Shown here: positions 1,019 through 27,865 of the stretch, in pieces
How positions within the stretch are numbered: the stretch's first letter is position 1
How the letters are laid out: each line of letters begins with the position of its first letter
Assembly: GCF_019468465.1 (NCBI RefSeq)
Contig: NZ_CP080519.1
Span: 7,929,001-7,993,000, forward strand
Source: Amycolatopsis sp. DSM 110486
GTDB taxonomy: Bacteria > Actinomycetota > Actinomycetes > Mycobacteriales > Pseudonocardiaceae
DNA: 64,000 nt
Direction: 5' to 3'
The notes under the pieces: model-generated
What the model saw: the letters and a program-made list of their open reading frames with translations, nothing else
The model's database searches: none
Told to the model about the DNA's origin: nothing
Program-made: the position numbers and the translations under genes

Positions 1019-1029
1019 GCGGGCAACGC

Positions 1030-1060
1030 TAGACAAGTTCTGCTGTGCGGTGCTTATAGT
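1030..1060 (+). promoter_or_regulatory. divergent promoter/operator region of the IclR gene
   Basis: A TATAGT -10-like box (1055-1060) lies 19 bp after a TAGACA -35-like box (1030-1035). Transcription would begin at or next to the GTG at 1067, so the IclR mRNA is probably leaderless. The heptamer AGTTCTG occurs twice (1036-1042 and 1058-1064), 22 bp apart on the same helix face, and is a candidate IclR operator. Prediction only. Confidence 0.45.
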
Positions 1061-1066
1061 TCTGAT

Positions 1067-1801
1067 GTGAAGAACAAGCCGACCTACGGGATCGATTCCG
1101 TCGACCACGCGCTGCACCTCGCGACGATCCTTCAGCAGGAGGGTCCCCTGCGGCTGACCGAGGCGGCCGAACGGCTCGGCGTCGCCCGTTCGACCGCGCA
1201 CCGGCTGCTGGCCATGCTCGTCTACCGGGACTTCGCCGAGCAGGACGAGGATCGGCGTTACGTCGCGGGTTCGGTGCTGCGGCGCCCGACGGTGATCGAA
1301 CCCGTCGACCACCTCCGCCAGATCGCGTTGCCGCACCTGCAGAACCTGACCGAGCGGACCCGGGAGAGCAGCAACCTGATCGTCGTGGTCGGCGACCAGG
1401 CGCGGTTCGTGGCGACGGCCGAGAGCGACCAGGTGCTGCGCGTCGGGGACCGGGCCGGGCGCATGCTCCCCGCTCACCTCGCGTCGGGTGGGCGGGTGGT
1501 GCTGGCGGCGCTCGACTCCGACGACGTGCGCGCCCGGTACGCCGGGACGGACGTCGACGTCGAAACGCTGGTGCGGGACCTCAAGAAGGTGCGGCGCCAG
1601 GGCTTCGCGCTCAACGACCAGCTCACCGAGGTCGGGCTGACGGCCGTCGGCTGCCCGATCGCCGGTTCACCGGGCTCGATCCCGGCGGCGATCTCGATCG
1701 CCATGCCCACCGCCCGGTACCGGCGCGACCGTCTTCGCGAGTGGGTCGCCCACCTCACCGCCACCGCCGAGGACATCGCGCGAGAGCTCGCCGAGGCCTG
1801 A
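1067..1801 (+). CDS. IclR-family transcriptional regulator
   Basis: DNA-binding regulator of 244 residues. The N-terminal winged helix-turn-helix (about residues 5-65) includes LTEAAERLGVARSTAHRLL; the C-terminal IclR effector domain includes GRMLPAHLASGGRVVLAAL. The GTG at 1067 is chosen because upstream codons in this frame are antisense to the dioxygenase and because a -10-like box sits directly before it. It is divergent from the gentisate dioxygenase and probably senses an aromatic acid or pathway intermediate. Whether it represses or activates cannot be read from the sequence. Confidence 0.9.
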   Translation: MKNKPTYGIDSVDHALHLATILQQEGPLRLTEAAERLGVARSTAHRLLAMLVYRDFAEQDEDRRYVAGSVLRRPTVIEPVDHLRQIALPHLQNLTERTRESSNLIVVVGDQARFVATAESDQVLRVGDRAGRMLPAHLASGGRVVLAALDSDDVRARYAGTDVDVETLVRDLKKVRRQGFALNDQLTEVGLTAVGCPIAGSPGSIPAAISIAMPTARYRRDRLREWVAHLTATAEDIARELAEA

Positions 1802-1809
1802 GCACGCAG

Positions 1810-1842
1810 CCGGGCCGCCGACCGGGGTGGTCGGCGGCCCGG
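1810..1842. terminator. bidirectional terminator hairpin
   Basis: A perfect 14-bp inverted repeat (CCGGGCCGCCGACC / GGTCGGCGGCCCGG) with a 5-nt loop sits between the convergent 3' ends of the IclR gene and the MFS carrier. There is no T-tract, as is common for terminators in GC-rich actinomycetes. Confidence 0.8.
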
Positions 1843-1856
1843 ACTGCGTCAGGCCG

Positions 1857-3218
1857 TCACGCGGCCGGGGTGTCGAGGTCGACGTCCTTGGTCTCGGGAC
1901 CGAGCACCGCGCCGGCCACCGTGCACACGGCGCCGATGACCAGCAGGACCGCCACGCCGTACTCGTAGCTGATGACCTTTCCGAGCCCGATGAGCATGAA
2001 CGAGTACAGCCCGGGGACGATCACGGCGAGCGTGAACCCGATGCCGTAGCCCGAGGCGCGCACGCCGACGTGGAACCGCTCGCACAGGTACGGGATCAGC
2101 ACGGCGTTCGGCGCGACGCTGATGCACAGGGCGATGGTGAAAAAAACCATCGCCAGCCAGAACGGCCCGCCGGTGCCCAGCGTGCGCAGCATGCCGATCA
2201 CACAGCCCACGGACACGGTTCCCGTCAGGACGCCGCAGACGATCAAGGTCCTGCGGCGGCCGAACCGCTGTCCCCACGCGCCGAGGAGCAGGTAGCAGGG
2301 GAAGAGCACCACGTTGGCGGCCAGGATGCCCCAGATCACGGTCTGGCTGGGCAGGTGCAGGTAGGAGATCAGGAGGCCGGACGGCGCGACGGTGAGCATC
2401 TGGATGGCGAACCAGATCCCCGTCATGAGCAGGAAAACCTGCCCGAGGCTGCGCAGGTTGTCCCCGCGGAACAGCTCCCGCAGCGGCGACCGGGTCTTCG
2501 CCGCCTGCTCCTCCTTGGCCTTGTTGGCGGCCCACGCCTGCGACTCGGCGGTCTTGCGCGCGTAGGCGAACAGGACGAACGCCATCACCGCGCCGATCAG
2601 GAACGGGATCCGCCAGCCCCAGGTGGCGTACGCCGACGTCGCCGAGCCGCTCGGGAACACCACCACGAGCACCGCCGTCAGCAGCGACACCGCGACGTAG
2701 GAGACCGGCCAGGCCGACGCGATGAACCCGCCCACGACCCCGCGCCGGGACTTCTCCGCGGACTCCATGGCCAGCGGGTTGGCCCCGGTGTACTGCCCAC
2801 CCATGAAGATCCCGCCGAGCAGCCGCAGCAGCAGGACGCCGGCGAGACCCCACATGCCGACGGATTCGTAGCCCGGCAGGAACGCCACCAGCAGGACCGC
2901 GAACCCCATGCCGACCGAACACACGACCGTCGTGCGGCGCCGGCAGAGGGTGTCGGCGAGGTGGCCGAAGATCACGCTGCCGATCGGCCGGCCCAGGAAC
3001 GCCGCGGCGAACGTGAGGAACGTGAGCGTCGACTTCGTCTGGGGTGGCAGCGTGGACGGGAGGAAGTACTCGATGGCCGGCCCCAGCGCGATCACCGGGA
3101 GCATGATCTCCCAGTAGTCGACGAGGAGGCCGTAGAAGGCGGCGCGTGCTGCTCGCTGCCCGCTCGTTTTGGCTTTCGTGCCGGGGAGGGTGGTTCGCCC
3201 GGCGGCGGAGGTGGACAT
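1857..3218 (-). CDS. MFS transporter, metabolite:H+ symporter type
   Basis: Integral membrane carrier of about 453 residues with around twelve hydrophobic segments. The loop after TM2 is GHLADTLCRRRT, and the acid-rich start of TM1 (DYWEIMLPVIALGPAIEYF) fits the metabolite:H+ symporter (MHS) group that includes aromatic-acid and citrate/proline-betaine carriers. Two adjacent ATGs (3221 and 3218) follow an AAGGA ribosome site; 3218 gives the better spacing of 6 nt. It lies 31 bp after the AhpD-like gene on the same strand, so the two probably form an operon. The substrate may be an aromatic acid given the gentisate enzyme nearby; this is inference. Confidence 0.85.
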   Translation of the reverse strand: MSTSAAGRTTLPGTKAKTSGQRAARAAFYGLLVDYWEIMLPVIALGPAIEYFLPSTLPPQTKSTLTFLTFAAAFLGRPIGSVIFGHLADTLCRRRTTVVCSVGMGFAVLLVAFLPGYESVGMWGLAGVLLLRLLGGIFMGGQYTGANPLAMESAEKSRRGVVGGFIASAWPVSYVAVSLLTAVLVVVFPSGSATSAYATWGWRIPFLIGAVMAFVLFAYARKTAESQAWAANKAKEEQAAKTRSPLRELFRGDNLRSLGQVFLLMTGIWFAIQMLTVAPSGLLISYLHLPSQTVIWGILAANVVLFPCYLLLGAWGQRFGRRRTLIVCGVLTGTVSVGCVIGMLRTLGTGGPFWLAMVFFTIALCISVAPNAVLIPYLCERFHVGVRASGYGIGFTLAVIVPGLYSFMLIGLGKVISYEYGVAVLLVIGAVCTVAGAVLGPETKDVDLDTPAA

Positions 3219-3249
3219 CATGGTTCCTTCGGGGAGTCGGAGGGGCCGG

Positions 3250-3711
3250 CTACTTCGACACGACCGGCGTGGACCGGCCGGGGACCATGCCGGTGGTGAT
3301 GGCCAGCCGGGTGAACGCGTTGATCGTGATGACGGCGAGCACGACGTCGGCCAGTTGCCGCTCGTCGAAGAACTTGCCCGCCAGCCCCCAGGTCTCGGCG
3401 GGAACACCGCGGCCGGCGATGAGCGTCATGGCTTCGGCGAGTTCGAGCGCGGCGCGTTCCTCGTCGGTGAACTCCGGCGATTCGCGCCAGACGGAAAGTG
3501 CGTAGATCCGGCTTTCCTCTTCGCCGTGTTTACGGGCGTCGCGCGTGTGGACGTCGACGCAGTAGGCGCAGCCGTTGATCTGCGCCACCCGGATCTTCAC
3601 GAGTTCGTGCAGGGTGTGGTCGATCGACGACGTCGCCAGGTACTTCTGCATGGCGAGCATCGACTTGTACGCCTCCGGAGCGACGGCGGAGTAGTTCATG
3701 CGCTCGGTCAC
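3250..3711 (-). CDS. carboxymuconolactone decarboxylase / AhpD-like protein
   Basis: Small helical protein of 153 residues with the AhpD redox motif CAYCVDVH (CxxC followed by His) typical of alkylhydroperoxidase-like members of the carboxymuconolactone decarboxylase family. These reduce peroxides through the vicinal cysteines; members without them have decarboxylase or isomerase roles. GTG at 3711 is preferred because GGGAG lies 6 nt upstream; an in-frame ATG at 3762 has no such site. It is the first gene of a probable two-gene unit with the MFS carrier. Confidence 0.83.
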   Translation of the reverse strand: MTERMNYSAVAPEAYKSMLAMQKYLATSSIDHTLHELVKIRVAQINGCAYCVDVHTRDARKHGEEESRIYALSVWRESPEFTDEERAALELAEAMTLIAGRGVPAETWGLAGKFFDERQLADVVLAVITINAFTRLAITTGMVPGRSTPVVSK

Positions 3712-4092
3712 TGCGATCTCCCGGTTTCGTTCGCTGGGCTTGTCGGTCGGCTTTCGGGTCACCTGGAGAGTTCACATCCTGGATCGACCAGGTCCAGGTC
3801 GTGTTGACCGAGGACACTAACCTCGCGACGCTCGGTCGTGACCGGGAATTCTTGTGTGCAGAACGGTTGCGCGCCAAACCGGTCCACGGAGCCGGTGGGG
3901 AAGTGGACCAGGTGCCGGCGCCGGAATCCGGCTAGCGTGGCGGGAGGCAGCCGACGAACTCGGCGCCGACCGGACAGGAAATCGGCGCCGGGATCCCCTG
4001 CTGGTTCTGCTCAGAAGAATTTCAAGCTCCGCCGCACTGGCACGCGGTTAAGTGTCGGGCAGGCTCCAGAGATACGTAATGAGGTGTTTTCC
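3712..4092. other. divergent intergenic region, no gene seen
   Basis: About 380 bp between the AhpD-like and PNPOx-like genes. Open frames here lack ribosome sites and family resemblance. It presumably holds two divergent promoters; no convincing operator or terminator was found. Confidence 0.5.
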
Positions 4093-4572
4093 GTGCCCAC
4101 GATCAGCCAAGAAATGACCGACGTCATCGAAGCCGCGAAACTGATGTTCGTCGCGACCGTCCGTCCTGACGGGACTCCCAACGTCTCGCCCAAGGGCTCG
4201 GTGCGCGTGCTCGACCCCGAACACCTGATCTTCATGGACATCGCTTCGCCGCAGACCGTGGAGAACCTGCGCCACCAGCCGGCGATCGAGGTCAACGTGG
4301 TGGATTTCATCGCCCGCAAGGGTTTCCGCTTCCGGGGCACCGCCGAGATCCTCGACGCGGGACATCCGGATTTCGAGTGGATCCGCGCGTGGCTGGTGTC
4401 GAAGCACAGCGACAGCCAGCCGACCAACCACGCCGTGAAGATCGCGGTCAGCGAGGCGGCTGAGCTCCTGTCGCCCGCGTACACGGTGGACCACGTGCCG
4501 GAGGCCGACGTCCGCAAGGGCTGGCTGCGCAACTACGGCCTCGCCGAGGCCACGTCCGAAGCCGGCGTGTAG
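4093..4572 (+). CDS. pyridoxamine 5'-phosphate oxidase-family flavoprotein
   Basis: A 159-residue protein with the split-barrel flavin-binding fold of the PNPOx family: the early strand LMFVATVRPDGTPNVSPKGS and the dimer-interface strand HLIFMDIASPQTVENL are characteristic. Such small proteins bind FMN or F420 and reduce or protect against diverse substrates; the true PNPOx substrate-binding tail is not evident. GTG 4093 follows GAGG at 8-nt spacing; an in-frame GTG at 4084 is the alternative. It precedes an alpha/beta hydrolase by 26 bp, suggesting cotranscription. Confidence 0.8.
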   Translation: MPTISQEMTDVIEAAKLMFVATVRPDGTPNVSPKGSVRVLDPEHLIFMDIASPQTVENLRHQPAIEVNVVDFIARKGFRFRGTAEILDAGHPDFEWIRAWLVSKHSDSQPTNHAVKIAVSEAAELLSPAYTVDHVPEADVRKGWLRNYGLAEATSEAGV

Positions 4573-4598
4573 CCGCCCATTCCCCTGAAGGAGCCGGA

Positions 4599-5330
4599 GT
4601 GTCAGTTTTTGTTCTCGTGCACGGTTCGTGGCACGACGGATCGTCGTGGGCCGAGGTGGCCGAGCGCCTGGAGGAGCTCGGGCACGAGGTGCACAGCCCG
4701 ACTGTCGCCGGCCACGGCGCCGGAGCGTCGCGGGAGGTGACCCACGACGACTGCGTGGCCTCGATCACGGACTACGTCGACCGGCACGACCTCGCCGGCT
4801 TCGTCCTCGTGGGACACAGCTGGGGCGGGAGCGTGATCGCCCGCGTCGTCGAGCGCTTGCCCGACCGGGTGCGGCGGCTGGTGTTCCTGAACGCCTTCGT
4901 CCCCGCGAACGGGACGAGCGTGCTGGACAACGCTCCGCCCGCCTACCAGGAGCTGTTCCCGATCCTGGCCGCGCAGTCGAGCGACAACACGGTGATGCTG
5001 CCGTTCGAGGTCTGGCGCGACGCGTTCATCGGCGACGCCGACCTGGCCCGGGCTCGGGAGACCTACGAGATGCTCACCCCGGAACCGCTCGGTCCGACGG
5101 TGGAGAAGTTGGACCTCACGAAGTTCTACGCGTCGACCGACGTTCCCCGCAGCTATGTCCTGTGCGGCGAGGACTCGGCTCTTCCGCCAGGCGACCCCGA
5201 GCACGGCTACCTGGCCAACGCCCGCCGGCTCGGCACGTTCCGGCTGGTGACGCTCGAAGGTTCGCACGAGGTCATGTTCACCAACCCGGCTCTGCTGGCG
5301 CGCAAGCTCGAGCTCGCGGGCCGGGACTGA
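4599..5330 (+). CDS. alpha/beta hydrolase
   Basis: A 243-residue alpha/beta hydrolase. The oxyanion strand FVLVHGSWHDGSSW is near the N-terminus, the nucleophile elbow is GHSWGG (about residue 73), an acid probably lies in CGEDSALP, and the catalytic His in EGSHEVMF near the end. The compact fold and the VFVLVHG start resemble the salicylate esterase/methylesterase-like branch. GTG 4599 is preceded by GAAGGAG. A strong hairpin follows, so this ends the PNPOx-hydrolase unit. Confidence 0.85.
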   Translation: MSVFVLVHGSWHDGSSWAEVAERLEELGHEVHSPTVAGHGAGASREVTHDDCVASITDYVDRHDLAGFVLVGHSWGGSVIARVVERLPDRVRRLVFLNAFVPANGTSVLDNAPPAYQELFPILAAQSSDNTVMLPFEVWRDAFIGDADLARARETYEMLTPEPLGPTVEKLDLTKFYASTDVPRSYVLCGEDSALPPGDPEHGYLANARRLGTFRLVTLEGSHEVMFTNPALLARKLELAGRD

Positions 5331-5346
5331 TCGGGTTCGACGGCTT

Positions 5347-5389
5347 GTCGCCGCGTCCGCGCCGGGCCGGGCCCCGCGGACGCGGCGAC
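5347..5389 (+). terminator. terminator hairpin after the hydrolase
   Basis: Perfect 14-bp inverted repeat (GTCGCCGCGTCCGC / GCGGACGCGGCGAC) with a 15-nt GC-rich loop, 16 bp after the hydrolase stop codon. Confidence 0.75.
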
Positions 5390-5439
5390 GTCCCCACCCG
5401 GGGGCCGGGTGGGCTGGAAGAACGAGGAGCCGCACGTCG

Positions 5440-5901
5440 ATGGGCGAAGCCGAGCTGGTTTTCCGGGAGCTGGGACCGGCCGACGATCCGCGGGTGAGGA
5501 AGGACTTGCTGCCGCTGCTGCTGCGGCTGCGGCCCGCGTTGTCCGGCGAACTGTTCGAAGAGCTCGTGACCGAAGGACACGACCAGGGGCTGCGGTACCT
5601 GATCGCGTACTCGCCGGCCGGGCAGCCACTGGCCGCGGCCGGGTACCGCACGCTCGTCACCAGCCGGGGCCGCGTCCTGTTCGTCGACGACCTGGTCACC
5701 GACGAGGCCGCGCGGTCGCGGGGGGTCGGCGCCCGGTTGATGGGCGAGCTGAAGACGCTGGGCCGGCGCGGCGGCTGCGTCCGGCTGGAGCTCGACTCCG
5801 GCGTCGCCAACCCCCACGCGCACCGGTTCTACCTCCGCCACCGGCTGGACATCACGGCGTTCCACTTCGCCGGGCCGGTGGAGCTCGAGACCCGGTCTTG
5901 A
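5440..5901 (+). CDS. GNAT-family N-acetyltransferase
   Basis: A 153-residue single-domain acetyltransferase. The acetyl-CoA pyrophosphate loop is visible as ARSRGVGARLMGEL (motif A, Q/RxxGxG/A type), preceded by the strand RVLFVDDLVTDE; NPHAHRFYLRHRL is the usual end region. Acceptor unknown. GAGGAG lies 10 nt upstream of the ATG. It is followed 36 bp later by an oxidoreductase on the same strand. Confidence 0.84.
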   Translation: MGEAELVFRELGPADDPRVRKDLLPLLLRLRPALSGELFEELVTEGHDQGLRYLIAYSPAGQPLAAAGYRTLVTSRGRVLFVDDLVTDEAARSRGVGARLMGELKTLGRRGGCVRLELDSGVANPHAHRFYLRHRLDITAFHFAGPVELETRS

Positions 5902-5937
5902 CCCGCGTCGGTACCAATCCCTTCAGGAGGAGAAAAA

Positions 5938-6897
5938 GTGCGTGCGGCCTACGTCGAACGGCTCGGTGGCGTGGCGGAGATCCGCTTCGGCGAGCTGCCC
6001 GAGCCCGTGGCCGGCCCGGGTGATGTCGCGGTGGATGTCGTTGCGGTGTCGGTGAACCCGGTCGACACCTTTGTCCGCTCCGGGCTGTATGTGACGGAAG
6101 TCCCGCTGCCGCTGGTGCTCGGCCGGGACCTCGTCGGGCGCGTCGCGGCGGACGCCCGGGGATTCCGGGCCGGTGAGTGGGTGTGGTGCAACAGCCTCGG
6201 CCACGCGGGGCGCCAGGGCGCGGCCGCCGAACGCGCGGTGGTGCCCGCCGACCGGCTCTACCGCGTGCCCGAGGGCGCCGACCCGCTCGACGTCGTCGCG
6301 ATGGCGCATCCGGCCGCCACCGCGTACCTGGCTCTGGTCACCTTCGGCCGCGTGCTGCCCGGCGAGACGGTTCTGGTCGCCGGCGGCGGCGGGAACGTCG
6401 GCGGCGCGCTGATCGAACTGGCGGCCGCGGCGGGCGCCCGGGTCTTCGCGACCGCGTCGGCCGCCGACCTCGGCCGCTGCCGTGACCTGGGCGCCGCAGA
6501 GGTGTTCGACTACCGCGACGAGCGGTTGTCCGACAGGCTGGCGTCCGCCGGGCCGGTCGACCTGTTCGTCGACACCTCCGGCCGCAACGACCTGGAGGCG
6601 GCGGTGCGCCTGCTGGCCTGGCGGGGCCGCATTGTGCTGCTGGCCGGCGCCCGCAGCCGCCCCGTGCTGCCGGCCGGTGAGCTGTACATGCACGACCGCT
6701 CGGTCCTCGGCTTCGCCATCTCGAACGCGACGGCCGCCGACCTCGCCGAGGCCGCCGCGGCCCTGAACCCCCGCTTCGCCGCGGGCGGCTTGCGTCCGCG
6801 CCGGGTGGAGCACCGCACCCTCGCGGACGCCGCGGAAACCCATCGCCGCCTCGAACGCGGCGAGGTGCACGGACGTGTGGTGCTGCTGACCCCGTAG
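5938..6897 (+). CDS. zinc-independent quinone oxidoreductase (MDR family)
   Basis: A 319-residue NADPH-dependent medium-chain reductase of the quinone oxidoreductase type. The N-terminal GroES-like domain has VSVNPVDTFVRSG and PLVLGRDLVG, and the Rossmann loop is VLVAGGGGNVGGALIELAAA (around residues 143-162). The catalytic and structural zinc cysteines of alcohol dehydrogenases are absent. The GTG start has a very strong AGGAGGAG ribosome site. Substrate unknown. A short inverted repeat (GTGTCC/GGACAC, 6902-6918) follows the stop and could be a weak terminator. Confidence 0.85.
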   Translation: MRAAYVERLGGVAEIRFGELPEPVAGPGDVAVDVVAVSVNPVDTFVRSGLYVTEVPLPLVLGRDLVGRVAADARGFRAGEWVWCNSLGHAGRQGAAAERAVVPADRLYRVPEGADPLDVVAMAHPAATAYLALVTFGRVLPGETVLVAGGGGNVGGALIELAAAAGARVFATASAADLGRCRDLGAAEVFDYRDERLSDRLASAGPVDLFVDTSGRNDLEAAVRLLAWRGRIVLLAGARSRPVLPAGELYMHDRSVLGFAISNATAADLAEAAAALNPRFAAGGLRPRRVEHRTLADAAETHRRLERGEVHGRVVLLTP

Positions 6898-7369: not shown

Positions 7370-10207
7370 GTGGGTGGCGAACGGCCTCGAGACGATGCCG
7401 GTACGTCCGGCCGGTCGGGGACGTGGAGGTGGGAGAATACAGGTGGGAAGACCCAAGCCCGGAGCCTGGGGGAATCTGACGAATTCCTGACGGGGGACCG
7501 GGCAGAATCTCGACGGGGTAGTGGCAGGCACGCCATCACCCCCGACCGTACGGAGCGCGTCTACGCCGAGGTGCTCGCGGACGTGGCGAAGGTCGACCAG
7601 GTGTCGGCCGAGAGCCACTTCTTCGACGACCTGGGCGTGAACTCGCTGGTGATGGCGCATTTCTGCGCGCGGCTCCGCAAGCGGGCGGACGTGCCGTCGG
7701 CGTCGATGAAGGACGTCTACGCCAACCCGACCGCGCGGAGTCTCGCGACCGCGCTCACCGTCGACGAACCCGCTGAGGCGGAGCCGGCGGCCGAAGCACA
7801 GGCCCGGGAACAGGGCACACAACAGAACCCGGTGAAGGTTGCTGACCTCCCCCGCGCCGGCGCGGTGGCGTACGTCCTCTGCGGACTGCTCCAGTTCGTG
7901 ACTTTCCTGGGTTATTCCTATCTCGCCGCGCTCCTGGTGGTACGCGGTGCTTCGTGGGTCTACGCCTCGGCGAACCTGCTGGAGGTCTACGTGCGGCTCG
8001 TGCTGTTCGGCGGTGCGAGCCTGATCGGGCTGTGCCTGCTGCCGGTCGTGGCGAAGTGGGTGCTCATCGGCCGGTGGAAGCCGCAGCGGATTCGTGTGTG
8101 GTCGCTTGCCTACTTCCGGTTCTGGCTTGTCAAGACGCTGGTGCAGCGGAATCCGGTGGCACTGCTGTTCCTGGGCTCGCCGCTGTACGTGCTGTATCTG
8201 AAGGCACTGGGCGCGAAGATCGGCCGGGGAGTCGCGATCTTCTCGCGCAACGTGCCCGTGTGCACCGACCTGCTCACGATCGGCGCGGGCTCGGTGATCC
8301 GGAAGGACTCGTTCTTCACCGGGTACCGGGCCGAATCCGGCGTGCTCCAGACCGGTTCGGTGACGCTGGGCAAGGACGTGTTCGTGGGTGAGCTGTCGGT
8401 GCTCGACATCGGCACGTCGATGGACGACGGCTCCCAGCTGGGGCACGTGTCGTCGCTGCACCCCGGGCAGGCGGTGCCGGCCGGTGAGCGCTGGCACGGG
8501 TCGCCGGCGCTGCGCGCGGAGGCGGACTACCGCGGGGTCGGGCCCGCGCGGTGCGGCCGGGTGCGCCGGTTTTCCTACGGTGTCTCGCAGCTGCTGACCA
8601 CGCTGTTCGTGTACCTCCCGTTGGCGGTCGGCGGTGTGGACGTGCTCATCGACAAGGTCCCGCGGCTCAACACGGTGCTCGGGACCCCCGTGGTCGCCTT
8701 CGGGAGCTGGGCGTTCTACGGCAAGGCGCTGGCGGTCACGTCCGTGATCTTCTTCGGCGTCTCGCTGCTCGGGCTGCTCTTCATCGCCGTCGTCCCACGC
8801 GTGCTCAGCCTCGCGCTCAAACCGGACAAGGTCTACCGCCTTTACACCTTGCGCTACTCGATCCTGCGGGCGATCCGGCTGATCACCAACCTCAAGTTCT
8901 TCATGACCGTGTTCGGTGACAGCTCCGCGATCGTGCACTACCTGCGCTACCTCGGCTACCGGATGCCCGACGTCGAGCAGACTGGTTCGAACTTCGGCAC
9001 GGCCATCAAGCACGAGACGCCGTTCCAGAGCTCCGTCGGCAGCGGCACGATGGTGGCGGACGGGCTTTCGATCGTGAACGCCGACTATTCGAGCACGTCC
9101 TTCAAGGTGTCCCGGGCGGCCATCGGCGCGCACAACTTCCTCGGCAACGTGATCGTCTACCCCGCCCAGGGGCGGACGGGGGAGAACTGCCTGCTCGCGA
9201 CCAAGGTCCTCGTGCCCGTTGACGGCCCTGTCCGCGAGAACGTGGGGCTGCTGGGCTCGCCGAGCTTCGAGATCCCCCGCACGGTGGCCCGCGACCACCA
9301 GTTCGACCACCTGCGGACCGGCGATGAGTTCCGCCGCCGGCTCGCCGCGAAGAACCGGCACAACGCCGGCACCGTCGTGATGTTCCTGCTGGTGCGCTGG
9401 TTCTACTTCTTCGCGGTCATGCTGCTCGGCTGGGCCTCGGCGGAGCTCTACCCGCGCTTTGGGGTTTCGGCGGTGGCGCTGGCCTCGGTCGCCGCGCTGC
9501 TGTTCAGCTCCGTGTACTTCACACTGGTGGAACGCGCGTCCATCGTGATCCACCCGTTGCGGCCGCTGTACTGCTCGATCTACGACCGCCGATTCTGGCG
9601 CCACGAGCGGTTCTGGAAGGCGGCGGCGTCCACAGTGCACGTCCAGGCCCTCAATGGCACCCCGTTCAAGAACCTGGCCTGGCGGATGCTCGGGGTCAAG
9701 GTCGGGAAGCGCGTGTTCGACGACGGCGCGGCGATGCCGGAGAAGACCCTCGTGACGTTCGGCGACGAGGTCACCCTCAACATCGGCTCGCACGTGCAAT
9801 GCCATTCCCAGGAGGACGGTGCCTTCAAGTCCGACCGCATCGTCGTCGGCGCGCGCAGCACCGTCGGGGTCGGTGCGTGGGTCCACTACGGAGTGACGAT
9901 GGGCGAGGGTTCGGTGCTCGCGGCCGACTCCTTCCTGATGAAGGGCGAGGACGTACCGCCGCACACCCGGTGGGAGGGCAACCCGGCCCGGGAGATCCGG
10001 CCCGGCCGTGAAGCCGACAGTCGGGTCGCGGCCGGCCGGCACCGGCGACGGGAAGGGCACAACGGCAAGTCGATCGAGCACTTCAGCGTCACCGACGGAA
10101 AACGGCGGCCCAGCCCGCGGCGCCGCGCCTCGGACGGACACAACGGACACAACGGAAAGGCGATCATCGCCGACGGAACGTGGCGGCCGAGCCCGTGGCC
10201 ACGGTGA
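7370..10207 (+). CDS. Pls-type membrane synthetase lacking the adenylation domain (T + 3x[TM-TM-hexapeptide])
   Basis: A 945-residue membrane protein. After a roughly 50-residue low-complexity head comes a carrier (T) domain with the phosphopantetheine serine Ser92 in DDLGVNSLVMAHF. Six hydrophobic segments follow in three pairs (about 163-190 and 210-234; 401-427 and 454-483; 665-694 and 700-724). Each pair is followed by a soluble domain with left-handed beta-helix (hexapeptide) features, e.g. IGAGSVIRKDSF and VGARSTVGVGAWVHYG. Carrier, six TM helices and three tandem soluble domains is the layout of epsilon-poly-L-lysine synthetase (Pls), where the soluble domains make the peptide bonds, but here the N-terminal A domain is absent. 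The tail is basic and repetitive (HNGK units). GGAGGGGG precedes the GTG by 6 nt. It is the first gene of the Dap cluster; presumably the next gene supplies adenylation in trans. Confidence 0.85.
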   Translation: MGGERPRDDAGTSGRSGTWRWENTGGKTQARSLGESDEFLTGDRAESRRGSGRHAITPDRTERVYAEVLADVAKVDQVSAESHFFDDLGVNSLVMAHFCARLRKRADVPSASMKDVYANPTARSLATALTVDEPAEAEPAAEAQAREQGTQQNPVKVADLPRAGAVAYVLCGLLQFVTFLGYSYLAALLVVRGASWVYASANLLEVYVRLVLFGGASLIGLCLLPVVAKWVLIGRWKPQRIRVWSLAYFRFWLVKTLVQRNPVALLFLGSPLYVLYLKALGAKIGRGVAIFSRNVPVCTDLLTIGAGSVIRKDSFFTGYRAESGVLQTGSVTLGKDVFVGELSVLDIGTSMDDGSQLGHVSSLHPGQAVPAGERWHGSPALRAEADYRGVGPARCGRVRRFSYGVSQLLTTLFVYLPLAVGGVDVLIDKVPRLNTVLGTPVVAFGSWAFYGKALAVTSVIFFGVSLLGLLFIAVVPRVLSLALKPDKVYRLYTLRYSILRAIRLITNLKFFMTVFGDSSAIVHYLRYLGYRMPDVEQTGSNFGTAIKHETPFQSSVGSGTMVADGLSIVNADYSSTSFKVSRAAIGAHNFLGNVIVYPAQGRTGENCLLATKVLVPVDGPVRENVGLLGSPSFEIPRTVARDHQFDHLRTGDEFRRRLAAKNRHNAGTVVMFLLVRWFYFFAVMLLGWASAELYPRFGVSAVALASVAALLFSSVYFTLVERASIVIHPLRPLYCSIYDRRFWRHERFWKAAASTVHVQALNGTPFKNLAWRMLGVKVGKRVFDDGAAMPEKTLVTFGDEVTLNIGSHVQCHSQEDGAFKSDRIVVGARSTVGVGAWVHYGVTMGEGSVLAADSFLMKGEDVPPHTRWEGNPAREIRPGREADSRVAAGRHRRREGHNGKSIEHFSVTDGKRRPSPRRRASDGHNGHNGKAIIADGTWRPSPWPR

Positions 10208-10221
10208 GCGGAGGGGAACAC

Positions 10222-13200
10222 ATGGGAGAGCTACCGAGAGCGGACTTCCGGTTCTGGCGCGACGTGCTCGTGGCCGGAGGGGCCACGACCGTGCCGCGCT
10301 GGACCTCGGGTTCGGGGGCGGGAGTGGGGACGACGACCGTGCGGCTGCCCGCCCCGGTGGCGGCGGGAGTGCGCCGGCTGGCGCGGGAGCTGGGGATCCC
10401 GGGCAGCGCGGTGCTGCTCGCCGCGCACGCCAGGGTGCTCGCCGCGCTGACCGGTGAACGCGAGGTCGTGACCGGCTATGCGACGCCGGCCGGCGCGCCG
10501 GTGCCGTGCCGCCTGACGACGGAGCCGGAAACCTGGCGGGAACTGGTGACCGAGACGTACCGGGCCGAGTCGCAGTTGTTGGCGCACCGGCATTTCCCGG
10601 TGGACGAGCTGCGGCGCGACCTGGGTGTGCCCGGCCCGGTCACGGAGACCGTGTTCGACCCCGCCGGCGACGGTGAGCTCACCGGGACGACGGTGCTGCG
10701 CGTCGGGTTCGCGAACCGCCGCAGGCGTCTGGACGTGCGTTACCGCGCCGACGTGCTCGACGCGGCCGCCGCGGCCCGGATCGCCGGCTACCACGTCGCC
10801 GCGCTCGCGCGGCTGGTGGCGGCCCCGGACACCGAGCACGCGCCGCAGAGCCTGCTCGCACCCGACGAGCTGCGGTTCCAGCTCGACGGGCTCGCCGGAC
10901 CGAGTCGGCCTTTGCCCGACCTGCGCGCGCACGAGCTGTTCGAGCAACGGGTGCGGCGGCACCCGGACGCGATCGCGGCCGTGCACGGCGAGCACGCGTG
11001 GACTTACCGCGAGCTCAACGAGCGGGCCAACCGGCTCGCGCGGGCGCTGCTCGCCCGCGGCCTGCGCCGGGAGAGCGTGGTGGCGGTGGTGACCGAGCGG
11101 AACCTCGGCTGGCTCACCGCTGTGCTCGCCGTGTTCAAGGCCGGTGGCGTGTACCTGCCGGTCGAACCGCACTTCCCGCCCGAGCGGATCGCGAAGACGC
11201 TGCGGCGGGCCGGCTGCGAACTGGTGCTGACCGAACGCGGCAGCAGCGAGACGCTCGACCACGCGCTGGAGTTGCTGCCCGGCGCGGTGCGGCTGCACAT
11301 CGAGGCGGCCTGCGCGGAGGACCGGTCCTCGACCGACCTCGGGATCGACGTGACGCCGCGCCAGCTCGCCTACATCTACTTCACCTCCGGCTCCACCGGT
11401 GAGCCCAAGGGCGCGATGTGCGAGCACGCGGGGATGCTGAACCACCTGCACGCCAAGATCGACGACCTGGGGATCGCCGAGGGACAGGTCGTGGCGCAGA
11501 CCGCGCCCCAGTGCTTCGACATCTCGTTGTGGCAGCTGCTGGCGCCGTTGCTCGTCGGCGGGCGGACGCTGCTCGTCGAGCAGGAGGTGATCCTCGACGC
11601 CGAGCGGTTCGTCGACCGGCTCGCGCGGGACCGGGTCGCGGTGGCGCAGGTCGTGCCGTCCTACCTGGAAGCCGTGCTGTCCTTTGTGGAGAGTCATCCG
11701 CGCCCGCTGCCGGACCTGCGGTGCGTGTCGGTGACCGGCGAGGCAGTGAAGAAGGAGCTGGTGCAGCGCTGGTTCGCGGCGTACCCGGACGTCAAGCTGG
11801 TCAACGCCTACGGCCTCACCGAGACCTCCGACGACACCAACCACGAGGTCATGGACCGGCCACCGGACGCCGGCCGGGTCCCGCTCGGGCGGCCCGTGAA
11901 CAACGTGCACGTCTACGTCGTCGACGAGCACCTGCAGCCGGTGCCGCTGGGCGCGCCAGGCGAGATCGTGTTCTCCGGTGTGTGCGTGGGGCGCGGGTAC
12001 GTGAACGACCTCGCGCGGACCCTCGCGGCGTTCCTGCCCGATCCGCACCGGGCGGGCGAACGCCTGTACCGCAGCGGGGACCGCGGGCGCTGGATGCCCG
12101 GGGGCCGGCTGGAATTCCTGGGCCGCCGCGACAGCCAGGTGAAGATCTCCGGCTTCCGGATCGAGATCGGCGAGGTCGAAAACACGCTGCTGCGTGTGCC
12201 CGGCGTCGGCGACGGCGCCGTGGTGGTCGCCGAGCGGGACGGCCAGGGCAAGCACCTGGTGGCGTTCTACTCGGCCGCCGAGGCTCTGCCCGGCGAGACG
12301 TTGCACGCGCGGTTGAGCGGCTCGCTGCCCGGTTACATGGTCCCGTCGGCGTTCCATTGGCGGGAGCAGCTTCCCCTGACCGCCAACGGCAAGATCGACA
12401 AGTTGGTGCTGACCGCGCTGGCGACGGAGCTCGAAGGCGCCGAAGAAGACCACGACGCTCCGGCGACACCCGCCGAGCAGCGGCTGGCGGCCGCGTGGGC
12501 CGGCGTGCTCGGCCTCGCGCCGGAGAAGATCGGCCGGCGCGACCACTTCTTCGACCGGGGCGGCACGTCGCTCTCGGCGGTGAAGCTGGCCGTCGCCCTG
12601 GATCGCGCGGTGTCGCTCGCCGAGATCACCCGGCACCCGGTGCTCGCCGACCAGGCCGCGCTGCTCACCGACCAGCCCCGCGCCGAGGCCGTCGAGCTGC
12701 TGCAGCCGCTCACCGAGCCGGTCGGAGAACCGGACGCCGTGCTCGTCTGCTTCCCGCACGCCGGGGGCAACTCGGTGAACTTCCGGCCGCTGGCTTCGGA
12801 GCTGCAGGGGAGCGGGCTCGCGATGTACGCCGTGGAGCTGCCCGGGCACGACCTGGCCGCCGATCGCGAGGCGTTCGCGCCGATGGCGCGGGTGGTCGAC
12901 CAGGTCGTCGCGGAAATCGATCACCTCGCGCCGAAGGGCGTGCTGTTGTGGGGCCATTCCTCCGGTGCCGCGTTCGCCTTCGAGACGGCCCGGCGGCTCG
13001 CCGGGCGCGGGGTGGACGTGCGGCGGGTGTTCCTGGGCGCGCAGCTGCTGGGCGACGCCGACGAACGGCGCGCCTCGATCACCGAGCTGGGCCGGCTGAG
13101 CAACTCCGCGATCGCCGCGGAGCTGGCCGCGGACAGCGGCGACCCCGCGCTCGGCGAGCTCGACGCGCAGCGGGCCGAGCAGGTCGGCGCGGCGTTCCGG

Positions 13201-13467
13201 CACGACTGCGTGTCCGCGCACAGCTACCTCGCCTCCGCTCTGGCGAACCCGCCGGCCGAGAAGCTGACCACGCCCGTCACCGTCGTCGCCGCGGACGACG
13301 ACCCGATCACCGTGGACTTCCGCGACCGCCACGGCGAATGGCGGCTGCTGGCCGAGCACGTCGAGGTGCGTGCGATCGCCGGCGGCGGCCACTACTTCCC
13401 GCGCACCAACCCGGCCGAGACCGCGCGGATCGTGCTGCGGGCCGCCGAACCGGTGCTCGTCACGTGA
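10222..13467 (+). CDS. NRPS: half-C, A, T, TE
   Basis: A 1081-residue non-ribosomal peptide synthetase. Residues 1-225 resemble only the C-terminal lobe of a condensation domain; no HHxxxDG motif is present. The A domain (about 230-740) shows A3 YIYFTSGSTGEPKG, A4 FDISLWQ, A5 NAYGLTETSDD, A8 GRRDSQVKISGFRIEIGEVE and A10 LTANGKIDK. The T domain has Ser783 (DRGGTSLS), and the terminal thioesterase has GHSSGA (Ser913) and a late His in GGGHYF. ATG 10222 follows GGAGGGG with ideal spacing, 14 bp after the Pls-like gene. Specificity-pocket residues readable here include Asp and Ile of A4 and two Asp after the A5 TET; acidic residues there could hold the side-chain amine of Dap (inference). Its neighbours for Dap supply make Dap the likely substrate. 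Confidence 0.9.
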   Translation: MGELPRADFRFWRDVLVAGGATTVPRWTSGSGAGVGTTTVRLPAPVAAGVRRLARELGIPGSAVLLAAHARVLAALTGEREVVTGYATPAGAPVPCRLTTEPETWRELVTETYRAESQLLAHRHFPVDELRRDLGVPGPVTETVFDPAGDGELTGTTVLRVGFANRRRRLDVRYRADVLDAAAAARIAGYHVAALARLVAAPDTEHAPQSLLAPDELRFQLDGLAGPSRPLPDLRAHELFEQRVRRHPDAIAAVHGEHAWTYRELNERANRLARALLARGLRRESVVAVVTERNLGWLTAVLAVFKAGGVYLPVEPHFPPERIAKTLRRAGCELVLTERGSSETLDHALELLPGAVRLHIEAACAEDRSSTDLGIDVTPRQLAYIYFTSGSTGEPKGAMCEHAGMLNHLHAKIDDLGIAEGQVVAQTAPQCFDISLWQLLAPLLVGGRTLLVEQEVILDAERFVDRLARDRVAVAQVVPSYLEAVLSFVESHPRPLPDLRCVSVTGEAVKKELVQRWFAAYPDVKLVNAYGLTETSDDTNHEVMDRPPDAGRVPLGRPVNNVHVYVVDEHLQPVPLGAPGEIVFSGVCVGRGYVNDLARTLAAFLPDPHRAGERLYRSGDRGRWMPGGRLEFLGRRDSQVKISGFRIEIGEVENTLLRVPGVGDGAVVVAERDGQGKHLVAFYSAAEALPGETLHARLSGSLPGYMVPSAFHWREQLPLTANGKIDKLVLTALATELEGAEEDHDAPATPAEQRLAAAWAGVLGLAPEKIGRRDHFFDRGGTSLSAVKLAVALDRAVSLAEITRHPVLADQAALLTDQPRAEAVELLQPLTEPVGEPDAVLVCFPHAGGNSVNFRPLASELQGSGLAMYAVELPGHDLAADREAFAPMARVVDQVVAEIDHLAPKGVLLWGHSSGAAFAFETARRLAGRGVDVRRVFLGAQLLGDADERRASITELGRLSNSAIAAELAADSGDPALGELDAQRAEQVGAAFRHDCVSAHSYLASALANPPAEKLTTPVTVVAADDDPITVDFRDRHGEWRLLAEHVEVRAIAGGGHYFPRTNPAETARIVLRAAEPVLVT

Positions 13468-13489
13468 ATTCGAGCCGAAAGGACAAGTC

Positions 13490-14494
13490 ATGGTTTCCTC
13501 AACGTCGGCATCGCTCGCCGAAGTGCAGCTGAGCCCGGGCGGGGTTCCGCTGCTGCCGGCCGAGCCGGGCACCGGTGCGCCGGGCTGGGCGAGCGAACAC
13601 CGCGACACGCTGCGCGCCGCCGTCGACGAGCACGGGTCCGTGCTCGTCCGCGGCCTCGGGCTGAGCGACGCCGCCGACGTCGCCGCCGTGTTCGAGCGCC
13701 TGGCCACCGAACTGATGAAAGACCGCGAGGCCTTCGCGTCGCGCGAGGTCTACTCGGCCGGGGTGTACTCGTCGTCGGCGTGGCCGCAGAACCAGCCGAT
13801 GTGCATGCACCACGAGCTGAGCTACCGGCTCGAGGTTCCCGGTCTGCTGCTGTTCGCCTGCCTCGGCGCGCCCACCGAAGGCGGCGCCACGGCTGTGTCG
13901 GACTCGCCGACCGTGCTCGACGCGCTGCCCGCGGACCTCGTCCAGCGGTTCGAGCAGGAGGGCTGGCTGCTCACCCGCAGCTACAACGACGAGATCGGCG
14001 CGACGGTCGCCGAGTCGTTCGGCACCGACGACCGGGCGGAGATCGAGAACTACTGCCGGACAAACGCGATCGAGTTCGAGTGGCAGCCCGACGGCGGGTT
14101 GCGCACCCGGCAGCGGCGCAGCGCGGTGGTGCACCACCCGGTCACCGGCCGGCGCTGCTGGTTCAACCAGGTCGCGTTCCTCAACGAGTGGACCATGGAT
14201 CCCGAGATTCGCGAGTACCTGATCGACGTGTACGGGGCCGACGCGCTGCCGTTCAACACCTGCTTCGGGGGCGGTGACCCGATCGGGGAGGACGTGGTGG
14301 CGCTGCTCAACCGCGTCTACGAGGCCAACACCGCGCGCGAGCCGTGGCAGGCCGGGGACCTGATGCTGGTGGACAACATCCGGACCGCGCACAGCCGGGA
14401 GCCCTTCGAGGGGTCCCGCGAGGTGCTCGTCGGGCTGGCCGATCCGGTGCGGCGGGCCGACCTCGCGCCGAGTACCGAAGCGGGTGCGAGATGA
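13490..14494 (+). CDS. TauD/SyrP-like Fe(II)/2-oxoglutarate oxygenase
   Basis: A 334-residue oxygenase of the TauD/clavaminate synthase superfamily. The iron ligands are readable as His107-x-Glu109 (MHHELSY; the HxE variant is typical of clavaminate-synthase and SyrP-like enzymes) and the distal His301 in RTAHSREPFEG, where the following Arg can bind 2-oxoglutarate. SyrP-type enzymes hydroxylate amino acids held on carrier proteins; DdaC of the dapdiamide pathway epoxidises a carrier-bound fumaramoyl-Dap. AAAGGA precedes the ATG. Its stop overlaps the SbnB-like start (ATGA), so it is translationally coupled to Dap synthesis and probably modifies Dap or a Dap peptide. Confidence 0.88.
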   Translation: MVSSTSASLAEVQLSPGGVPLLPAEPGTGAPGWASEHRDTLRAAVDEHGSVLVRGLGLSDAADVAAVFERLATELMKDREAFASREVYSAGVYSSSAWPQNQPMCMHHELSYRLEVPGLLLFACLGAPTEGGATAVSDSPTVLDALPADLVQRFEQEGWLLTRSYNDEIGATVAESFGTDDRAEIENYCRTNAIEFEWQPDGGLRTRQRRSAVVHHPVTGRRCWFNQVAFLNEWTMDPEIREYLIDVYGADALPFNTCFGGGDPIGEDVVALLNRVYEANTAREPWQAGDLMLVDNIRTAHSREPFEGSREVLVGLADPVRRADLAPSTEAGAR

Positions 14495-15561
14495 CCGCGA
14501 TCCGACCCACCCCGGCCCGCGCCGAAACCGGCGGGCCGAACGCGGTGCCCCCGTTCGCCGTGATCGGCGGCGGCCAGGTGCGGCGCACGCTCGCGGGGCG
14601 CGAGCAGGAGATCGTCGAACTGGTGGAGGGCACCTACCGGCTGCACAGCGCGGGCGACACGGTGAACCCGCCGTCGTACTTCCTGCGGTTCCCCGACCGC
14701 CCGGCGTCCCGGATCATCGCGCTGCCGGCCTCGATCGGCGGACAGGTGCGAGTGGACGGTCTGAAGTGGATCTCGAGCTTCCCCGAGAACATCGAGTCCG
14801 GCATTCCGCGGGCGTCGGCGGTTCTGATCCTCAACGACCACGACACCGGATACCCGTTCGCGTGCCTGGAAAGCTCCATCATCAGCGCCACGCGGACCGC
14901 CGCTCTGGCGGCGTGCGCCGCGGCGGCGCTCAGCCGGGGCCGGGCGCGGCCGACGCGGGTCGGGTTCGTCGGGACGGGGCTCATCGCCCGCTACGTCCAC
15001 ACTTTCCTGGCCGGCACCGGCTGGGAGTTCGACGAAATCGGCGTGCACGACCTGTCGGCCGAGAGCGGCGCGGGGTTCCGCGGGTACCTCGAGCGATCGG
15101 GAACCGGCGGGCGGATCACGGTCCACGAGTCGGCGGAGTCGCTGATCTCCTCGAGTGACCTGATCGTGTTCGCCACCGTCGCGGGCCGGCCGCACGTGTC
15201 CGAGCGGTCGTGGTTCGACCACAATCCGGTGGTGCTGCACGTTTCTCTGCGCGATCTCGCGCCGGAGCTCCTGCTGAGCACGGCGAACTTCGTCGACGAC
15301 GTCGAGCACTGCCTGAAGGCCGGCACGTCGCCGCATCTGGCCGAGCAGCTCACGGGCGGGCGCGAGTTCCTCGACGGCACATTGGACGACGTCCTGGCCG
15401 GACGGGTCTCCGTGCCGGCCGACCGGCCGGTGGTGTTCTCGCCGTTCGGGCTCGGGGTCCTCGACCTCGCGGTGGGCAAGTACGTCTACGACGAAGTGAC
15501 CCGGGCCGGCGAGCTGACCGTCATCCCGGACTTCTTCCACGAACTGCGCCGCTACGGCTGA
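14491..15561 (+). CDS. sbnB: 2,3-diaminopropionate biosynthesis protein SbnB
   Basis: A 356-residue member of the ornithine cyclodeaminase/mu-crystallin family. The NAD-binding loop VGFVGTGLIARYVHTFL sits around residue 155-172, and DGLKWISSFPENIESGIPRA is the typical substrate-proximal segment. SbnB oxidatively cleaves N-(1-amino-1-carboxy-2-ethyl)glutamate (ACEGA) to L-2,3-diaminopropionate plus 2-oxoglutarate with NAD+. Paired with the adjacent SbnA-like gene it completes Dap synthesis. The released 2-oxoglutarate is also the cosubstrate of the oxygenase encoded just upstream. Start ATG overlaps the previous stop. Confidence 0.9.
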   Translation: MTAIRPTPARAETGGPNAVPPFAVIGGGQVRRTLAGREQEIVELVEGTYRLHSAGDTVNPPSYFLRFPDRPASRIIALPASIGGQVRVDGLKWISSFPENIESGIPRASAVLILNDHDTGYPFACLESSIISATRTAALAACAAAALSRGRARPTRVGFVGTGLIARYVHTFLAGTGWEFDEIGVHDLSAESGAGFRGYLERSGTGGRITVHESAESLISSSDLIVFATVAGRPHVSERSWFDHNPVVLHVSLRDLAPELLLSTANFVDDVEHCLKAGTSPHLAEQLTGGREFLDGTLDDVLAGRVSVPADRPVVFSPFGLGVLDLAVGKYVYDEVTRAGELTVIPDFFHELRRYG

Positions 15562-15585
15562 CGACAAACCAGGGAGGGGGTCATC

Positions 15586-16572
15586 GTGACCGTGATATCC
15601 GATCCCACGGACTTCAACGAGGAAGAGCTGTACGTCGATCTCGAGTCGATCTTCGGGCATTCTCTCTTCCTCAAGTGCGAGGGTTTCAACTTCGCCGGGT
15701 CGATCAAGCTCAAGGCCGCGACCGAGATGGTGGAGGCCGCCGAGTGGCAGGGACTGCTGACGCGGGACTCGATCCTGGTCGAGTCGTCGTCGGGCAATCT
15801 CGGCGTGGCGCTCAGCATGGTCGCCGCCAGCAAGGGCTACCGGTTCCTCTGCGTCACCGACTCGCGCTGCAACCTGGCCAGCCGGCGTCTGATGGAGGCG
15901 CTGGGCAGCCGCGTGCACATCATCGCGGAGCCCGCCGCCGACGGCGGTTTCCTGGGTGCGCGGCTCGCGCTGGTGCGTGAGCTGTGCGCCTCCGACGAGC
16001 GTTACGTCTGGCTCAACCAGTACGCCAACCCGGAAAACTGGAAGGCGCACTACCGGACCACCGCGCCGGAGATCGCCCGCCAGTTCCCGAAACTCGACGT
16101 GCTGTTCGTCGGCGCGGGCACCACGGGCACGCTCATGGGCTGCGCCCGCTTCTTCCGGGAATGGCCCCGACCGGTCCACATCGTCGCGGTGGACAGCGCC
16201 GGCTCGGTGACCTTCGGCGGCGCGCCGGGCCGCCGGATGATCCCCGGCCTCGGCACGAGTGTCCGGCCGGCGCTGCTCGATGAGTCCTATGTGGACGAGG
16301 TGATCGCCGTCGAGGAGGCCGACACCATCCGCAGCTGCCACCGGCTGGCCCGCAGGGGGTTCCTCTTCGGCGGCTCCACCGGCACCGTCGTAAGCGGCGC
16401 CATGCGTTGGCTCCCCGAGCACGAGGGGCAAGGCCTCACCGCCGTCGCCATCGCGCCGGACCTCGGCGAGCGCTACCTCGACACGATCTACCAGACGAAC
16501 TGGCTTCAGGACCTCTACGGCGACGACGTGCTCGACCACGACGAGATGATCGCGGGCTTCCGGCGGGACTGA
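15586..16572 (+). CDS. sbnA: 2,3-diaminopropionate biosynthesis protein SbnA
   Basis: A 328-residue PLP enzyme of the cysteine synthase fold. The cofactor lysine is Lys41 in FAGSIKLKAA (a divergent form of the usual GSxKDR), the PLP-phosphate loop is in VGAGTTGTLMG, and ESSSGNLGVALSMVA is the substrate-binding loop. SbnA joins O-phospho-L-serine and L-glutamate to give ACEGA, the substrate of SbnB. It begins 24 bp after sbnB with GGGAGGGGG before the GTG. A plain cysteine synthase is less likely given the divergent lysine motif and the sbnB neighbour. Confidence 0.88.
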   Translation: MTVISDPTDFNEEELYVDLESIFGHSLFLKCEGFNFAGSIKLKAATEMVEAAEWQGLLTRDSILVESSSGNLGVALSMVAASKGYRFLCVTDSRCNLASRRLMEALGSRVHIIAEPAADGGFLGARLALVRELCASDERYVWLNQYANPENWKAHYRTTAPEIARQFPKLDVLFVGAGTTGTLMGCARFFREWPRPVHIVAVDSAGSVTFGGAPGRRMIPGLGTSVRPALLDESYVDEVIAVEEADTIRSCHRLARRGFLFGGSTGTVVSGAMRWLPEHEGQGLTAVAIAPDLGERYLDTIYQTNWLQDLYGDDVLDHDEMIAGFRRD

Positions 16573-26201: not shown

Positions 26202-26232
26202 CGGGTGACCGTTCGTCGGGAGTCTTGTCTTT

Positions 26233-26247
26233 CGTCACGCGGTGACG
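26233..26247. promoter_or_regulatory. candidate MftR operator 1
   Basis: CGTCAC-gcg-GTGACG, a perfect 6-bp inverted repeat with 3-bp spacer, in the mftR-mftA intergenic region. Confidence 0.6.
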
Positions 26248-26264
26248 TTACTCTCCCTGATATT

Positions 26265-26279
26265 CGTCGCGAGGTGACG
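26265..26279. promoter_or_regulatory. candidate MftR operator 2
   Basis: CGTCGC-gag-GTGACG, the same pattern as operator 1 with one mismatch, 32 bp further downstream (three helical turns) and 20 bp before mftA. The repeat of the motif supports a dimeric TetR site pair. Confidence 0.58.
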
Positions 26280-26298
26280 AAAATCGAAGGAGGTCCTG

Positions 26299-27864: not shown

Positions 27865-27865
27865 G

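Follow-up and report, generated by a model that had tools for sequence, protein, structure and literature searches.

A conserved five-gene operon of Amycolatopsis with a Pls-type membrane protein lacking an adenylation domain: a candidate trans-fed, oxidising assembly line for 2,3-diaminopropionate

The stretch of DNA analysed here, in the following called the window, covers 64 kb (7.929-7.993 Mb) of the 11-Mb genome of Amycolatopsis sp. DSM 110486, and at positions 7370-16572 it holds a single compact operon on the + strand that encodes, in this order, a Pls-type membrane protein consisting of a carrier (T) and a transmembrane part (T-TM), a nonribosomal peptide synthetase (NRPS), a TauD-type oxygenase (OX), SbnB and SbnA. 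We are inclined, if only slightly, to regard this operon as a trans-fed, oxidising assembly line of the Pls type, in which L-2,3-diaminopropionate (L-Dap) would be activated by the NRPS and joined by T-TM, and its product, as assigned from the genes alone, appears to be an oxidised Dap oligomer. The gene content and gene order of the operon, its conservation among relatives, its retained motif residues and the code of its adenylation (A) domain were all established in the present analysis. The intergenic gaps are 14, 22 and 24 bases, the genes for OX and SbnB share an ATGA overlap at 14491-14494, and the features are as follows, TE denoting thioesterase and PLP pyridoxal phosphate.

7370..10207, + strand: T-TM, an A-less Pls/PosA-type protein with a carrier, membrane helices and three tandem beta-helix domains (TIGR02353, PP-binding)
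Start of T-TM, + strand: putative GTG start with GGAGGGG upstream (from the sequence)
7538..7762, + strand: carrier (T) domain of T-TM with Ser92 (PF00550, residues 67-129)
10180..13467, + strand: NRPS consisting of half a condensation (C) domain, A, T and TE, with a likely ATG start at 10222 (PF00501, PF00550, PF00975)
10222..10884, + strand: C-terminal half of the C domain, without HHxxxD (ObiF1 alignment)
10939..12393, + strand: A domain with the code DIWQSTADDK (PF00501/PF13193)
12478..12666, + strand: second carrier (T) domain, on the NRPS (PF00550, residues 767-829)
12742..13464, + strand: TE with its Ser in GHSSG, optional in relatives (PF00975, 74.3 bits)
13490..14494, + strand: OX, a TauD-type Fe(II)/2-oxoglutarate oxygenase (PF02668, 149 bits)
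14491..15561, + strand: SbnB-type dehydrogenase for Dap synthesis (TIGR03944, 408.6 bits against a cut-off of 326.9)
15586..16572, + strand: SbnA-type PLP synthase for Dap synthesis (TIGR03945, 393.8 bits against a cut-off of 349.95)

An earlier note on this DNA had described a Pls-like protein without an A domain, a separate half-C/A/T/TE NRPS, a SyrP/DdaC-type oxygenase and SbnB plus SbnA, and indeed all five genes were found in place on the + strand as open reading frames (ORFs) with the corresponding profile matches, those of SbnB and SbnA above NCBIfam-type cut-offs. The same note considered these parts not normally to be seen together, which proved wrong, since the set is a widespread unit that many soil actinobacteria carry in similar form: when relatives were searched for the same arrangement, 53 of 80 named loci had all five genes in that order, as did nine of 17 loci from other genomes of the same genus. 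The named loci are the best 80 of 455 relatives found in a scan of named genomes with OX, so this sample leans to close kin, and the same-genus search, likewise made with OX, covered 80 genomes including the present one and gave matches in 63, from which 20 stretches, mostly of higher-scoring matches, were picked by hand (three from the present genome and 17 from others). Since the loci were retrieved through OX, its presence in them is by construction. Among the 53 loci with the full order 36 have a TE and 17 have none by threshold, a divergent TE (L127) being counted with the latter. Thirteen of the other 27 named loci lie near a contig end, including L086, L090 and L099, which have a ligase in place of the A domain, and the remaining 14 comprise loci with SbnA upstream (L056, L083, L103), further ligase-type loci (L087, L098, L112), a Chloroflexota locus in which all five genes are rearranged (L117), a Rokubacteria locus with no Sbn genes within reach (L120), a locus without T-TM (L121) and five loci in which one gene is missing by thresholds (L100, L105, L116, L119, L123), an upstream SbnA match that is cut or on the opposite strand being found in L116 and L123. 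The remaining same-genus loci include a T-T-T-TM/OX/ligase set (L041), a locus without T-TM (L047) and others in different contexts. Chance adjacency of the five genes was rejected on the count of 53 of 80.

When all open frames of at least 80 residues flanking the 53 loci were compared, over median stretches of 3.9 kb upstream and 7.8 kb downstream, no family turned up in more than eight of the loci, and the five genes therefore seem to suffice. A first flank test with a crude gene caller likewise gave no other family in more than nine of 101 loci except a spurious antisense frame in SbnB, this caller having grouped SbnB in its own family in only 27 loci. Furthermore, the pairwise protein distances of the five genes correlate over 63 rows with r from 0.60 to 0.83 (0.76 for the membrane domain with the A domain and 0.82 for the A domain with OX), and none of 1000 permutations was as high in any of the four gene pairs tested, where it should be mentioned that one genome stands in both sets (L043 and L094) and is counted twice in tests of 62 and 63 rows. 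This shows that the five genes travel together, which is no proof of interaction.

T-TM scores 733.9 bits against TIGR02353, the Pls/PosA terminal domain, where the cut-off is 423.1, and has a PP-binding match and, in the same domain profile search, no AMP-binding match. The AlphaFold model of the protein, with a mean predicted local distance difference test (pLDDT) score of 67 and weaker mid-chain, has a carrier fold, three beta-helix stretches and six long helices in three pairs, within residues 165-232, 397-480 and 651-727, which agrees with the layout of six transmembrane helices and three hexapeptide domains put forward in the earlier note; a hydropathy scan has seven peaks, the seventh of which (263-281) is not a long helix in the model. 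A fold search with T-TM listed mainly hexapeptide acyltransferases and other beta-helix proteins, each matching single domains. We know of no catalytic residue in domains of the T-TM type, but the carrier Ser is kept in all 61 loci with a T match, and 54 columns, among them the carrier Ser92, R250, N593, E746, R772, E791, Q810, H812 and D816, are near-invariant both in 28 T-TMs and in 15 intact A-T-TM synthetases, and because of these shared columns the machinery of T-TM looks kept.

A different outcome is conceivable for the same genes, namely a small dapdiamide-like Dap peptide, for which one Dap is loaded, oxidised and released by the TE while T-TM, instead of polymerising, makes just one amide bond or transports the product to the other side of the membrane. 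The GHSSG motif is retained in 37 of 39 TE copies, and the same four activities are found side by side in a Pantoea vagans C9-1 locus on plasmid pPag2 (L177), which we take to be a dapdiamide-type cluster from its annotated ddaG and its gene set. We nonetheless find this reading unlikely, since T-TM keeps columns common to polymer synthetases, since no ATP-grasp, DdaG or AsnB-like gene is present in the 15 flanking ORFs scanned or conserved in the flanks, and since a TE match above 80 bits is missing in 23 of 62 related loci. The latter fact likewise speaks against a TE-released Dap peptide as the general product, one of the outcomes the earlier note had considered, and judged from this distribution TE release is not a core step. 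On a FastTree tree the presence of the TE changes at least five times, the shuffled mean being 19 and the least 13.

The NRPS (10180-13467) has AMP-binding, PP-binding and thioesterase matches and no full Condensation match in the domain profile search, and in an alignment of its residues 14-1083 with ObiF1 the match sets in at chain residue 211 of the latter, so that the C domain is represented by its second half. HHxxxD was found in none of 52 related NRPS genes, and the carrier Ser of the NRPS is kept in 62 of 62 loci. In one locus (L090, 2319-2930) the NRPS is cut down to a half-C domain and a carrier of together 203 residues, a fragment whose match to PF00668 (positions 186-278 of 456) stays under the gathering score; the A domain is gone and a discrete AMP ligase is found alongside. 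Across 80 related A domains retrieved at E <= 1e-100, the ten code positions, set by alignment with the GrsA numbering, are constant except for two, with DIWQSTADDK in 67, DIWQSTTDDK in 12 and DIWQCTTDDK in one, and DIWQSTADDK is retained in L047, L048 and L121, all outside the full operon. Furthermore, the same or a close code occurs beside other Dap-type supply genes in three plasmid loci: L136 (DIWELTADDK) adjoins annotated SbnA and SbnB, whereas L137 (DIWQSTADDK) and L138 (DIWQATCDDK) are near a kinase, argininosuccinate-lyase-type genes and SbnA-like genes that score 209 and 238 bits, below the SbnA cut-off of 350, and the argininosuccinate-lyase-type route may there yield Dap. Since the code is nearly invariant and recurs beside other Dap-type supply genes, L-Dap is the likely substrate of the A domain, an assignment that is well supported by context.

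That the A domain instead activates another substrate, with Dap serving as a free nucleophile or chain starter, is quite improbable. It could be argued from the unlike code of the dapdiamide-type NRPS, the substrate of which is a Dap derivative, and from the fact that a search of open-licence papers with the code letters gave no NRPS paper and no biochemical report for the code, but the pattern DIW[Q/E]-x-T-x-DDK is found again at several sites with Dap-type supply genes close by, and a small basic side chain would go well with its two Asp residues. According to PMC10522769, all homopolymer synthetases have a conserved Glu at code position 3, and those for poly-Dap and poly-diaminobutyrate (Dab) carry Phe at position 2 and Glu at position 3. 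The separate A domain departs from this Asp/Glu rule in having Asp at position 1 and Trp at position 3, and because of this Trp the activating module is, by its sequence, of a different NRPS lineage and not a displaced Pls A domain.

Remnants of an original A domain were sought in 97 loci (the 80 named, 16 others and the window), 91 of which have a T-TM match. No remnant was found in 86 of these 91, the window included, and five have an A-core remnant without a match to the C-terminal lobe (L009, L010, L056, L061, L119), which in L009 is a separate annotated gene and in L061 has a broken A5 motif. The remnants of L061 and L119 read DFEC..., near the DFE[Y/C] codes of the intact L152-L156 and near the Phe/Glu pattern given above for poly-Dap/Dab synthetases. 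A further locus (L118) has tandem T-TM genes at 18-3527 and 4062-6683, the first of which is cut by the locus start and has an A-domain piece at its start that was left out of the remnant count. In a tree of 58 membrane domains chosen by hand, 47 are found on one side of a long branch (100/100), including that of L141, a member of the T-TM clade whose Lys-type A domain is complete, and 11 polylysine- or DFE-type enzymes on the other. A nesting of the T-TM clade within the poly-Dap/Dab synthetases was therefore rejected, and the link to that group comes only from the two A-core remnants and not from the membrane domain. Moreover, no SbnA or SbnB match was found in the 16-20-kb contexts of five DFE-type enzymes (L170-L174), so that these enzymes are not established as poly-Dap synthetases. 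A simple reading of the sequences would be that the A domain decayed and was lost, with re-supply in trans.

Other proteins of this family were also observed. The present genome encodes a complete A-T-TM protein, the A domain of which has the polylysine-type code DAESIGTVVK (L037, G000:C1:10514000-10532000), and T-TM genes without a neighbouring NRPS or oxygenase match occur in the same genome (L036) and on two Streptomyces plasmids (L007, L008), where they sit among metal-related genes (CopC, cation diffusion facilitators; P-type ATPase).

OX retains H107, E109, H301 and R310 in 62 of 62 rows, and since these are all four of the metal and 2-oxoglutarate residues the enzyme is probably active. 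With the oxygenase of the P. vagans cluster it shares 34% identity; a structure model with a mean pLDDT of 50.7 was too poor and was not used. The least probable of the alternatives, an unoxidised or comb-like poly-Dap in which two carriers build Dap-Dap units to be joined by T-TM while OX acts elsewhere in trimming or a side reaction, has in its favor the two carriers with a single Dap-type A domain and the citation of a branched poly(Dap-Dap) polymer in PMC10522769, but is in poor agreement with the retained residues of OX.

The same oxygenase family occurs in further settings. A paralogous T-T-T-TM cluster in the present genome (L038, G000:C1:8657000-8676900) has a member of it with 71% identity, an exosortase-type AMP ligase (TIGR03098, 763 bits) in place of the DIWQ A domain, and a small gene, the relative of which in L090 is a carrier protein. 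In Kutzneria viridogrisea (L121, 14-12931) the cassette lies beside a fatty-acyl-AMP-ligase/ketoreductase/carrier protein and the end of an A-T-TE protein, with no T-TM match. In L047 (2754-3998 and 4844-11432) a T-TM-less Dap/oxygenase cassette is found about 850 bp downstream of a gene for a nitric oxide synthase oxygenase (494.9 bits); another TauD gene and regulators of the Streptomyces antibiotic regulatory protein (SARP) type are nearby, and N-N or nitro chemistry on Dap is possible there. The cassette of L048 is found beside cytochrome P450s and a multi-domain NRPS.

Trans loading, oxidation on the carrier, polymerisation and export would make up the proposed trans-fed line as follows. 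SbnA and SbnB would make L-Dap, and the half-C/A/T module would activate it and load its own carrier, possibly also that of T-TM directly. OX would then oxidise the carrier-bound Dap by hydroxylation or desaturation, and the oxidised unit would pass to T-TM, or the T-TM carrier would be loaded in trans. The tandem beta-helix domains of T-TM would join the units at the membrane to form a short isopeptide chain, and the TE, where present, may edit, shuttle or release. Some of these steps have precedents, since CmnA-A1 loads L-Dap in trans on the A-less CmnI (PMC12400406), a logic with which the gene layout of the operon is compatible, and since DdaC acts on a carrier-bound Dap derivative (PMC12451424).

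Several points do however weigh against the scheme. Oxidation is its weakest step and hard to draw: a hydroxyl beside an unprotected beta-amine would not be stable, and the oxidised unit may therefore be in dehydro form or made after acylation. The scheme gives the TE no definite role, and the correlated gene distances can arise from vertical descent alone. The T-TM membrane parts are 24-30% identical to the polylysine-type and DFE-type synthetases compared, and together with their placement on a separate side of the long branch this means that the chemistry of T-TM could have changed. Three of the five A-core remnants are likewise not of the D-F-E kind, reading DCQ in L056, DLE in L010 and HLE in L009. 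Finally, OX occurs with T-TM but without the DIWQ A domain in six of the 80 named loci, the ligase-type ones (L086, L087, L090, L098, L099, L112), which have an exosortase-type AMP ligase instead, while the cassette occurs without T-TM in L047, L121 and L048, SbnB not being detected in the latter. From these two facts it seems that OX serves more than one line by acting on carrier-bound units. As a tentative extension, on which we would not insist, the operon could represent widespread split oxidising synthetases: Dap would be oxidised on a separate carrier, for instance to hydroxy-Dap or diaminoacrylate, and a Pls that has lost its A domain would then polymerise this hitherto unknown monomer, the Dap/oxygenase cassette being portable and also used by ordinary NRPS lines.

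Elsewhere in the window, positions 25554-31939 hold mycofactocin genes, namely MftR, MftB, the radical S-adenosylmethionine maturase, a mycofactocin-coupled short-chain dehydrogenase/reductase and MftD, all above NCBIfam cut-offs.

If the trans-fed reading is true, the operon breaks the pattern of polymer synthetases as single A-T-TM chains, shows a route by which such a synthetase may shed its own A domain and have its units supplied again in trans, and brings oxidative tailoring into a class of polymers that the cited papers describe as plain diamino acids. The operon furthermore offers an A-domain signature for Dap. It is also directly testable, as it is short, seems self-contained and occurs in many named isolates of actinobacteria, one Chloroflexota and one Rokubacteria genome having rearranged or partial forms of it. 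Among the papers listed for the terms searched in the open-licence literature, none described an A-less Pls combined with an oxygenase and an A domain for Dap.

Among known systems, the poly(L-diaminopropionic acid) synthetase of Streptomyces albulus PD-1 has the Pls-type membrane domain in common with T-TM, and there homologues of cysteine synthetase and ornithine cyclodeaminase make L-Dap, but it is an A-T-TM protein in one chain, whereas here the A domain is on another protein and an oxygenase, a half-C domain and a TE are added (PMC4668381). The same applies to PosA, the delta-poly-L-ornithine synthetase, and the cationic homopolymer family, which share the TIGR02353 domain with a carrier but have the A-T-TM architecture and Glu at code position 3 in place of an A-less chain and a separate A domain with Trp (PMC10522769). 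Membership of the standard Pls kind was rejected on these grounds, the missing A domain and the departure from the Asp/Glu code rule. In sulfazecin biosynthesis, SulM and SulO likewise combine a Dap module bearing a TE with a nonheme iron oxygenase and Dap supply genes, but the SulM TE uses Cys (Gln-Cys-Asn) where the present one has Ser in GHSSG (PMC11298585), which led us to reject this kind as well; no sulfotransferase is found in the 15 flanking ORFs scanned. Capreomycin biosynthesis shares the L-Dap A domain of CmnA-A1 loading an A-less carrier, yet CmnI has a C domain, an MbtH-like protein is needed, and no membrane polymerase is involved (PMC12400406).

The P. vagans cluster resembles the operon in its adjacent SbnA, SbnB, TauD oxygenase and short A-T-containing NRPS, with identities of 46% for SbnA, 42% for SbnB and 32.5% for the A domain besides the 34% of TauD, but it differs in its A code (DS-DIGVINK), in having no T-TM match and in its DdaG, ATP-grasp and AsnB-type partners, and dapdiamide membership was rejected since such partners are absent from the scanned flanks. 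The dapdiamide NRPS is 578-579 residues long with a separate hydrolase gene alongside, and by its length it would be too short for the A-T-TE architecture that the earlier note had given to the DdaA-D set. The notion of a hybrid between the Pls and dapdiamide kinds can accordingly be kept in part: a Pls-type polymerase is tied to Dap synthesis, with a separate activating module and a dapdiamide-like Dap/oxygenase logic, though as a conserved operon and not as a unique hybrid. As at least one tested defining feature differs from each of the Pls, dapdiamide and sulfazecin kinds, the operon stands apart from all three, and we would class it as a variant of the Pls kind.

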